Shown here: one piece after another, positions 5,453 to 30,452 of the stretch
Layout of the letters: the number at the start of each line of letters is the position of its first letter
Numbering within the stretch: position 1 is the first letter of the stretch
Assembly (NCBI GenBank): GCA_018401745.1
Contig: JAGYJY010000021.1
Location: 1 to 64,000, forward strand
DNA length: 64,000 nt
Direction of reading: 5' to 3'
Source of the DNA: Pirellulales bacterium
Lineage (GTDB): Bacteria; Planctomycetota; Planctomycetia; Pirellulales; UBA1268
Program-made: the position numbers and the translations under genes
The notes under the pieces: generated by a model
Told to the model about the DNA's origin: nothing
What the model saw: the letters and a program-made list of their open reading frames with translations, nothing else
The model's database searches: none

Positions 5453-5520
5453 GTGGTGGCCTCCCGGTTGGATGCCAGATGGCGTTGTTCGTTGTTGAGT
5501 TTACTCAGTGTGGGTCGCTC

Positions 5521-5658
5521 GGGGTGAGCCCGGGGCTGCCCCTCCGGACGCTCACTGCGGGCCATCCAGGCCCTCGCTCGCTCGGATATCCGCTTCGCTT
5601 TGGCCCTCCGGGCGTCGCTCGCTCCTATACGCCGGAGGGTCAGCCCCGGGCTCACCCC
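5521..5658. repeat. Palindromic dispersed element, copy A (MITE/REP-like)
   Basis: The ends are 27-bp inverted repeats with one mismatch (5521-5547 and 5632-5658): GGGGTGAGCCCGGGGCTG on the left, CAGCCCCGGGCTCACCCC on the right. The interior, about 84 bp, is rich in CGCTCGCT/CTTCGCTT words. A diverged but clearly alignable copy lies at 30325-30452, with a compensatory base change in the stem. It has no coding capacity for a transposase. Confidence 0.75.
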
Positions 5659-5736
5659 TCGCTTGCGGTTTGAGGACGGCCTGTCCGCCGCCTTCGGCGT
5701 CGGTCTGCGGCCGGGGTGGGGACGAGGGCCGACGTG

Positions 5737-5970
5737 CAAGCGGGACGGGTCCATCGGGTGCCGGAGGACGTGCAAGCGGGACGGGTCCACGGGTGCCGAA
5801 GGCACCTCGGCTGTGCCGAGGCCGCTCCGCGGCCCGCGGACCGTCCCGTTCAGCCCGCGGCCCGCGGACCCGTCCCGTTCAAGCCGCTCCGCGGCCCGCG
5901 GACCCGTCCCGTTCAAGCCGCCGCGGCCCGCGGACCCGTCCCGGTCAGGTCGCTCCGTTCCGTTCCGTTC
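5737..5970. repeat. Cloverleaf-forming GC-rich repeat with amplified arms
   Basis: Left arms (GCGGGACGGGTCCA type) occur twice, at about 5740 and 5776. Right arms (CCCGCGGACCCGTCCCG type) occur four times, beginning at 5833, 5861, 5895 and 5927. Between 5776-5792 and 5833-5849, which pair with each other, lie three back-to-back perfect hairpins with three-base loops: GTGCC-GAA-GGCAC (5793-5805), CTCGGC-TGT-GCCGAG (5806-5820) and GGCCGC-TCC-GCGGCC (5820-5834). A related element sits at 25351-25417. Confidence 0.7.
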
Positions 5971-25350: not shown

Positions 25351-25417
25351 CGGGACGGGATTCGGGGGGCCGGAGGCCCCTCGGAGAGGCCGCTGTGCGG
25401 CCCCGAGTCCCGTCCCG
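25351..25417. repeat. Cloverleaf-type GC-rich element, second locus
   Basis: Outer arms CGGGACGGGATTCGGGG (25351-25367) and CCCCGAGTCCCGTCCCG (25401-25417) pair over 17 positions with one G-T pair. Inside are GGCC-GGA-GGCC (25368-25378) and GGCCGC-TGT-GCGGCC (25388-25402). It shares the GGGACGGG arms and the TGT-loop hairpin with 5776-5850. It lies between the PSD1 and DUF1501 genes of one transcription unit. Confidence 0.7.
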
Positions 25418-25489: not shown

Positions 25490-28400
25490 TCAGTCGATGT
25501 AGGCAAACTCGTTGAGGTTGAGGATCACGCGGGCTGCGCTCGCCAGGCCGTGGGCGTTGGCCAGTTCCACGAGGGCGTCGCGCTCGATGTCGTCGGGTCG
25601 GCGGCCGAGGGCCAGCTCAAAGGCCCGCTCGATCTGGGCGGCCCGGTCATCGCCGACATCGTGCTTGAGCCGCTGGGCCAGTTCCTCGGCCTGCACGAGC
25701 ATGAAGCCGTTGTTGAGCAGAGCGAGCGCCTGCAGGGCCGACACGCTCTCGTTTCGCTTTGCCACCCGCATCGAGGGATCCGCGCAGTCGAGGCAGGTCA
25801 TGAAGGGCTGCGTTTGGCTACGGACAATGAAGCGATAGACGCCTCGCCGCCAGCTGCTCGCGTCGCGTGGGTCGGCGAGATCGTAGCGGTAGTGGGGAGA
25901 GTGCTCGGGATGCTCGATCACAAAGTCTTGCCAGCCCGGGCCGCCCATCGACAGGTCGAGCGTGCCCGCCGCGGCGAGCACGGCATCGCGGATCGCCTCA
26001 GCCTCCAGCCGCCGCCGGTTCTGCCGCCAGAGGAGGCGGTTGTCGGCGTCGATCTCGGTGGCATCCTCGCGGGATGTCGAAACCTGCCGGTAGGTGCTGC
26101 TGGTCACGATCAGCCGGTGCAGATCTTTGAGCGATCCACCGCCATCACGAAACGCACCGGCCAGCCAGTCGAGGAGCTGCTGGGTGCGACGGCTCGCCCC
26201 CCATCCGGCCGAAGTCGTTGGGAGTGTCGACGAGCCCACGTCCGAAGTGGTAGTGCCAGACGCGGTTGACGATGCTCCGCCAAATCAGCGGATTGGCTGA
26301 GTTGGTGAGCCAGCGGGCGAGCGCTGCTCGGCGGTCGCCCTCGGCATGATCGGCCGGCAGGTCAAAGCGGCTCTCCAGGCTCTCGATCAAAGACAGCGTC
26401 CCTGGCACGACCTCGCGAGTGGGGGCCAGCACGTTGCCGCGTGAGAGCAGGTGAATCGTGCGGGGCTCGCCGTGGCGAACGAGTGATCCCCCGGCATACA
26501 CCGTGGCCTGCTCGGGAAGGGTGGCAAGGCCGGCGTCTGCTTCCTGGATTCCCCGCTGGGCCTCGGCGATGCGGGCGGCCTGCTCGGGGGTGCGGGCGGC
26601 TGCCAGCACGGCCTCACGCTCAGCTTCCAGCCTGGTCCGCTCATCACCTTTTGCCGAAGGGCTCTGGCCATCCACGAGGTTTCCGCGACCCCAGCGTGGA
26701 GGGGCCTCGATCGAACTGAGAGATGTCACCGCTCCGCCGAGAGCAAGGTTGGCCGCCGTCTCGTTTTCGGCGGGCCTGCTGAGTGCTTCGAGTTCGGCGA
26801 GGGCAAAGATGTAGTCGTTGGCCCGCGTGGCCAGGCGGGAGGCGGTGATCCGCACGTAGCGGGCGGTGCCATCAAATGGATGCCGCACGGCCGACACACC
26901 AGGGTTGTCGACGTCGGCATCCTCGCGCGAGGCAACGAGCGTGACGCCCTTGAGAAACTCGGGATCGTCGCTGACCTCCACCCGATACCGCAGCGGGAAG
27001 CCGAAGCCGGCACCGATGCTGTTAAAGGTGTCGTGGCAGGGCCGCAGCACGATCTCGCTCAGCGGCAGCGACCCGCCCAGGTCGACCTGCACCCATGTCT
27101 CGGTGTCGGGAGTGGGGGAGATCTCACTGTGCCAGCCGTAGGCGGGGCCCGGATTGGCCTCACCGACCGGAATCGCCTCGATCGCCGCAGTGAGTGCAAC
27201 GAGCCGCTCGCCAGCCGCGGCAGCGATCGCCTCTTCGAGGGCCTGCTTGCTGCTCGCATGCGCCACCTTCTGCTGCGTGAGCTGCCGCCGCTTCGCGGCG
27301 ACGTCAGCATCGGCGTCGAAGCGAATGATCGTCGCGGTCGATCGCGGCAAACACAGCCTGCAGCGAGTAGTAGTCTTCCTGGCTGACCGGGTCGAACTTG
27401 TGGGCATGGCACTGGGCGCACTGCACGGTGACGCTGGCAAAGCTGCCGATCGTGTTGGCCACCATGTCGTCGCGATCGAGATGACGGGCAATCTTGCCGT
27501 CGGTTTTTGTTTCCGGAACCTCGCGATGGCCGATGAAGTCCCAGGGGCCTGCGGCGATGAAACCGATCGCCTCGTGGCCGTCGCGGGTGTCGCCAAAGAG
27601 CACATCGCCAGCGATCTGTTCTTCAACGAAGCGGGCGTAGGGCTTGTCGTCGTTGAAACTCCGGATCACGTAGTCGCGGTAGGGCCAGGCGTTGGGCCGG
27701 GGCTTGTCTTTGTCGTAGCCATGGGTGTCGCCGTAGTGGACGACGTCGAGCCAGTGGCGGGCCCAGCGTTCGCCGTACCGCGGGGAAGCGAGCAGCCGGT
27801 CGACCAGCTGCTCGTAGGCATCGGGAGCGGGGTCGCGGAGAAAAGCGTCGATTTCCTCAGCCGCGGGCGGCAGGCCGGTGAGATCAAACGAGAGCCGCCG
27901 AATCAGCACGCGGCGATCGGCAGCTGGTGACGGGGCGAGGCCTGCCTCGACAAGCCGGCTGCGGACAAACTGGTCGATCGGAGTGCGGGCGGGCTCAACG
28001 CCGTCGCGGCCCGCGAAGGCATCTCCTGTGTCGGGCACAGCCGGCTCTGTGAGCGGCTGCCAGGCCCAGTGGTCCAGCCGCTCGTCGCGTGGTTCCACCA
28101 TCGCCACGTCTTCAGATCCAGGCCACGGAGCACCCGCGTCGATCCAGGCACTCAGGGCAGCGACGTCGTCTGCGGAGAGCGGGTCTTCATCGGGGGGCAT
28201 CCGCTCGTCGTCGGCGGTCGAACGAACCCGGCGAACGAGCTCGCTCGTGGCCCCACTGCCCGCAACCACCGCCGGACCAAAGTCTCCCCCTTTGAGCAAA
28301 CCAGCCCGCGAATCGAGCCGCAGGCCCGACTCCGCGGCGTCGGCACCGTGGCAGGTCGCACAGCGAGCAAGCACGAGTTCGCGAGCGGCCGTATGGGGAT

Positions 28401-30300: not shown

Positions 30301-30324
30301 TGCGCTGGCGGCCTTCCGCTCAGG

Positions 30325-30452
30325 GAAGCCCGGTGCTGCCCCTCCGGCCGCTCGCCTCGGCCCTCCCTGGCCTCGGGTCGCTCTCGTTCCACTCGCTTTC
30401 GCCCTCCAGGCTTCGCTCGTTCCACTACGCCGGCTGGTCAGCACCGGGCTTC
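30325..30452. repeat. Palindromic dispersed element, copy B
   Basis: Terminal inverted repeats GAAGCCCGGTGCTG and CAGCACCGGGCTTC are perfect. Against copy A (5521-5658) the ninth base of the left arm is T instead of G and its partner on the right is A instead of C, a compensatory change. The interior aligns with copy A throughout, for example CCCCTCCGG on the left and CTTCGCTCGTTCC on the right. It lies between a terminator and the next gene. Confidence 0.75.

Follow-up and report, generated by a model that had tools for sequence, protein, structure and literature searches.

A dispersed cloverleaf-forming palindromic repeat in a Pirellulales genome, probably maintained for its folded shape

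Between a DUF1549/PSCyt1 gene and a beta-helix gene, the window (the whole 64,000 nt stretch analysed, on contig C20 of G000, a 2.88-Mb, 74 %-complete planctomycete MAG) carries a short sequence that can be drawn as a cloverleaf. Is this structure an RNA, a mobile palindrome or a by-product of mutation, and is its shape under selection? We consider it likely that the cloverleaf is a non-coding, dispersed palindromic repeat of the REP/BIME/REPIN kind, which has spread by insertion and local duplication and is kept for its folded form.

The copy between these two genes (copy 1, positions 5778..5847, unstranded, 70 nt) consists of a 5′ arm (5778–5791), three leaves (5792–5806, 5807–5819 and 5820–5834) and a 3′ arm (5835–5847) with one base deleted. 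The leaves are, in order, GGTGCC-GAA-GGCACC, TCGGC-TGT-GCCGA and GGCCGC-TCC-GCGGCC, with zero unpaired bases between them. Folding confirmed the preliminary description of an outer stem enclosing GAA, TGT and TCC triloop hairpins; the outer stem (5776–5849) is imperfect, having one A-C mismatch in addition to the missing base of the 3′ arm. The RNA folding proposed there as a check gave z-scores of −4.2 on the plus strand and −6.2 on the minus strand, and DNA energies gave −4.2 and −5.7, respectively. None of 200 shuffles folded as well on either strand, with DNA or RNA parameters. With DNA energies the cloverleaf is formed on both strands, whereas with RNA energies a rod is preferred on the minus strand.

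A second copy (copy 2, positions 25352..25416, unstranded) lies between a DUF1553 gene and a DUF1501 gene and is a two-leaf variant that also folds. Its covariance model score is 69.4 bits (E 1.6e-11), compared with 82.3 bits (E 4.2e-14) for copy 1. Leaves at 25366–25380 and 25388–25402 are separated by 7 unpaired bases (25381–25387), and the middle TCGGC leaf is absent. The outer stem measures 15 bp (25351–25365 with 25403–25417), not the 17 bp originally given, and the TGT hairpin thought to be common to the two copies is shared in its loop letters only; in copy 2 this loop is borne by the GGCCGC leaf, the counterpart of the TCC leaf of copy 1, and in copy 1 by the TCGGC leaf. Beside copy 2, the DUF1553 (PSD1) domain at 25490–27626 is split across two overlapping reading frames, 26145–27626 covering profile positions 1–52 and 25490–26239 covering positions 50–243, which suggests a frameshift or an assembly error.

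The two copies are members of a family of about 100 that is scattered through the genome, and the cloverleaf layout is far above chance. The palindromic arm pattern occurs at 94 places in G000, compared with 2 for the reversed control. A covariance model built from 27 distinct copies retrieved about 100 copies in this genome with E down to 1e-15, in a list that enters many places on both strands. The inner hairpins are conserved among them, so that the genome-wide search suggested in the preliminary description came out in its favour. Analysis of G000 was carried out on the stretches surrounding the copies. Among 58 relatives the sole carrier is G001, a congener of G000 and the nearest to it of those sampled, with 55 matches (both strands counted); in the other 57 the cloverleaf was not detected by a scan with stricter filters, which weak or diverged copies may escape. 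Likewise, in a class-wide sample of 298 genomes the only positive was G000, few candidates being scored per genome under stricter filters that diverged copies may escape.

Similar arms were found in species outside CALCGM01 (G001), where they form long hairpins or rods of other sequence. As these arms do not enclose three leaves, the loci were judged to be a different element; a Y1 gene was not found beside them, except for one weak match (L181). Seven such loci (L142, L143, L147, L148, L156, L178 and L191) are from actinobacteria or acidobacteria and have GGGACGGGTC...GACCCGTCCC arms flanking unrelated long hairpins. Some of these genomes have several matches, and the loci look like separate palindromic repeat families. 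Carriage by phages was discarded, the number of viral contigs with the arm pattern being zero. No description of the element was found in the open-access literature on planctomycete palindromic repeats and on cloverleaf-shaped bacterial interspersed repeats.

The unit is approximately 71 nt long with ends GAAC...GCTTGC, and can be written GAAC-GGGACGGG...GCTTGC. An outer stem of approximately 14 pairs is joined by three triloop leaves at a four-way junction. When normalised by their ends, copies read GGGACGGGTC-(variable 2)-CG, three leaves, CG-(variable 2)-GACCCGTCCC. With respect to these ends the three inner hairpins may face either way; among copies in which both ends and the inner feature could be assigned, the CCGC leaf is first in 56 and last in 38. 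Besides the two leaves of copy 2, variants include a long third leaf (C21:193929 and C21:215612) and a rearranged longer copy (C22:22043).

Copy 1 sits within an array of partial units and other repeats. The array begins with module C (5516..5660, minus strand), a palindromic repeat of approximately 145 nt with near-identical inverted ends (I6), of the form GGGGTGAGCCC...GGGCTCACCCC and 99.3 % identical to the C2 query. It is followed by module B (5657..5716, minus strand), a second palindromic repeat of the GGCCGCAGACCGCCGC...GCGGCGGACAGGCCG type that is 90 % identical to the B query over 60 nt. A left half-unit (5731..5766, unstranded) then supplies a 5′ arm and the first half of a leaf, and its GACGTGCAAGC flank recurs at 5767, ahead of the full cloverleaf. 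Three right half-units (5855..5957, unstranded, starting at 5855, 5889 and 5921) close the array, each a half leaf plus a 3′ arm; they are 92–95 % alike and constitute direct-repeat family D3. The cloverleaf thus forms a mosaic together with modules B and C, both of them palindromic repeats as well. Module C is also multicopy in G003, in which no cloverleaf was detected, so the modules of the mosaic are separable. A diverged module C copy lies elsewhere in the window (30317–30450; 79 % identical to the C2 query over 138 nt) with no adjoining cloverleaf. More repeated modules occur within the intergenic mosaics of loci L067–L137, for example ACTCGCTTCACGCCTGCGAAGCC...GGCCGCAG and GGCCAAACGCTCCGCGAGCGTTCGCCGACCCGCCGAGCCTCC upstream of many copies.

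Half-units are strongly polarized about full copies. Of 96 copies, 15 have extra 5′ arms on their left side, 17 have extra 3′ arms on their right and 1 shows the reverse (32:1). Where inspected by eye, half-units end at or beside leaf loops; we infer that their breakpoints fit slippage or template switching there. The arrays, inversions and half-units point to template switching as a frequent event at the arms, and this raises the possibility of a purely mutational artefact, with stems that stay perfect, in the absence of selection, through template-switch correction of quasi-palindromes. Such correction restores pairing and not a particular sequence, however, and many double changes would therefore be expected. 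The stem sequence is instead nearly invariant among copies and double changes are few, and we regard the artefact as extremely unlikely.

Stems are nearly invariant across copies and the triloops vary. In 113 copies of 71 nt from G000 and G001, the nine loop positions have a mean diversity of 0.38 per site, and the stems, with four variable positions excluded, have 0.024. In the alignment 96.6 % of cells are paired, and six pairs show double changes, with compensatory replacements affecting leaf 2 (GC/CG) and leaf 3 (UA/GC) as well as the outer stem; double-change cells number 19, compared with 0–1 in slid controls. A strand bias for G-U over A-C positions was set aside, since only about three variants underlie it. 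Orthologous copies of the two genomes, a small sample of 8 pairs, differ at 7 of 72 loop positions and 3 of 464 stem positions, compared with 5.8 % in the flanks, and at 3 of 32 of the variable positions (11, 12, 60 and 61). For this divergence the Fisher p is 5e-5 and the binomial p is 1.6e-9, copies within one genome being non-independent. The pair L180/L069 was dropped from the set because the G001 copy sits inside module C, and for L136 just one flank was recovered in G001. Gene conversion would be expected to homogenize loops and stems equally, and quasi-palindrome correction would not be expected to preserve stem sequence; the pattern therefore argues for constraint on the stems. The early proposal of a non-coding structure, distinct from tRNA and under selection for its form, is accordingly supported by some 100 copies, by covariation and by stems that diverge less than loops and flanks.

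Reading the CCGC leaf first, leaf 1 has a GNA loop in 90 of 113 copies and leaf 3 has TNC, the complement of GNA, in 102 of 113, with leaf 2 mixed (57 of 113). In DNA, the C-GNA-G triloop forms a mini-hairpin of unusual stability. Some of these counts may be due to shared descent.

All copies are intergenic according to a home-made, unbenchmarked codon-model caller: none of 108 overlaps a called gene, and with the same caller 60 are between tandem genes, 26 between convergent and 16 between divergent genes, with 6 at contig edges. Clusters between tandem genes are nearer to the 3′ end of the upstream gene in 39 cases and to the start of the downstream gene in 11; the others comprise 22 convergent and 14 divergent clusters. 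The location of the copies, which had been left as something to check, is by this caller intergenic and near gene 3′ ends. At C18:27662 a T-tailed hairpin follows the gene in G002 and G003, and G000 has a cloverleaf and a half-unit instead. Judging from position and from this locus, the cloverleaf is probably kept for its folded form at transcript ends, although insertions may simply be tolerated near 3′ ends, which would explain this position without a function. A simple scan found no difference in the frequency of ordinary T-tailed terminators where a cloverleaf sits. In a simple scan of loci L067–L137, T-tailed hairpin terminators look rare in G000 generally (14 of 250 gene ends).

The stable RNA fold, the covariation and the triloop leaves could also belong to a structured RNA, regulatory or small, that many loci express. 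Identity with tRNA or an Rfam family is ruled out, as had been suspected for tRNA from the letters alone (ARAGORN, 0 tRNA genes; Rfam, 0 matches). Against an RNA of any other kind, both strands fold equally well, one subfamily is oriented 16:16 with respect to tandem genes and the other 14:6, and the element is confined to two of the genomes sampled. A small RNA is therefore very unlikely.

Close genomes differ in the presence of the repeat and in its copy number. At C23:83819, matched flanks of the same two genes are 24 bp apart in G002 and about 78 bp apart in G003; in G000 a cloverleaf is present and about 171–178 bp lie between those flanks. A target-site duplication, GGCCTGCGGTCGGGGGG on both sides of this copy, is not claimed because module B has similar letters. 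Two loci (L123 and L108) have two copies versus one between G000 and G001, and at two others (L187 and L180) a copy is present in G001 only, within module C and with identical junctions.

Such recent insertions would also be produced by a REPIN-like element that is purely selfish, has no host function and relies on a Y1 HUH transposase for its movement. Stem conservation would then arise because only copies that fold and are recognized get copied, by an enzyme that ignores the loops. Parallels with REPINs (hairpin-forming inverted halves, clusters and singlet-like halves; PMC3116915) favour this account, as does the reported occurrence in planctomycetes of a TnpA-Y1 class flanked by atypical structures in high copy number (PMC6006769). 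However, established copies still have stems more conserved than their loops, and a mobilizing gene linked to the repeat did not emerge. In G000, C17 carries the two Y1_Tnp (PF01797) matches, and both are bordered by the palindrome AAAAAGGTGTCAGGAACCTTTTT with no cloverleaf nearby; no Y1_Tnp was detected in G001–G003, which are incomplete genomes, though G001 is copy-rich and 82 % complete. The G000 RAYT was therefore rejected as the mobilizer. A class-3-like TnpA-Y1 motif was likewise not found in the loci examined. We hold a purely selfish element to be unlikely, with an appreciable chance nonetheless. The two Y1 transposase genes (overlapping loci L046 and L047; G000:C17:16380–18482) are near-identical and lie in a duplicated segment, surrounded by seven matches to AAAAAGGTGTCAGGAACCTTTTT, which was found in no other locus examined.

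For the favoured reading, a folded repeat spread by insertion and local duplication, three steps may be envisaged. A trans-acting enzyme handling the single-stranded folded form would seed new sites. Replication slippage or template switching at the leaves could then grow arrays, duplicating the flank, an arm and half a leaf on one side. Finally, folded copies close to the 3′ ends of genes would be retained because, whichever way they point, they act as a block at transcript ends, a stability element or a DNA-topology site.

More speculatively, the repeat might represent an undescribed class of mobile palindrome, a four-way-junction DNA cloverleaf read as a folded single strand by an enzyme or a junction-binding host protein, with interchangeable triloops, those of leaves 1 and 3 being mainly GNA when read on one strand; we think this unlikely. 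Repeats of this type are often regarded as junk. With constrained stems and free adjacent loops in the same copies of two close genomes, this one offers a clean natural setting in which to test whether the shape of a nucleic acid is under selection. Its four-armed form, with no linked RAYT found, also raises the question of which enzyme copies such planctomycete repeats.

Several known repeats resemble the cloverleaf in part. Class 3 TnpA-Y1 genes, which are mainly planctomycete, acidobacterial and proteobacterial, are associated with atypical high-copy flanking structures (PMC6006769); the phylum is partly shared, but those structures, compared here by description only, flank a class 3 gene, none of which was found at the cloverleaf loci examined, and have a CnGA foot. 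GTAG REPs are reported from the PVC superphylum, and CGTC REPs lack a dedicated transposase (Di Nocera et al. 2013, PMC3733652). Both are short palindromic repeats downstream of genes, and the cloverleaf resembles CGTC REPs in that no dedicated transposase was found for it. They have a single short stem (8–9 bp in CGTC REPs, or similar) with an unpaired tetranucleotide tag at one end, whereas the cloverleaf ends are without GTAG and its GACG/CGTC letters lie inside the paired outer stem.

The many dispersed intergenic palindromic copies (94 places versus 2 in the control; 0 of 108 in genes) are REP-like and BIME-like, and the intergenic mosaics, in which palindromic units are arrayed alongside further repeated modules, here B and C, recall BIMEs. 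In contrast to BIMEs, the unit is three-leaved, the module sequences differ and half-units are polarized about a full copy. REPINs, inverted REP doublets that form a hairpin (Bertels and Rainey 2011, PMC3116915), also have inverted halves with conserved outer parts that fold as one unit, and are extragenic, high in copy number, clustered and accompanied by leftover singlets; the cloverleaf is such an inverted doublet, its arms pairing around the leaves. A repeat-flanked Y1_Tnp gene of the REPIN/RAYT kind, linked to the cloverleaf, was not found in the incomplete genomes G000–G003. Unlike in REPINs, each half of the cloverleaf terminates with a leaf of its own and a further leaf forms the spacer, and the result is a four-armed unit of unusual shape among REP-type repeats.
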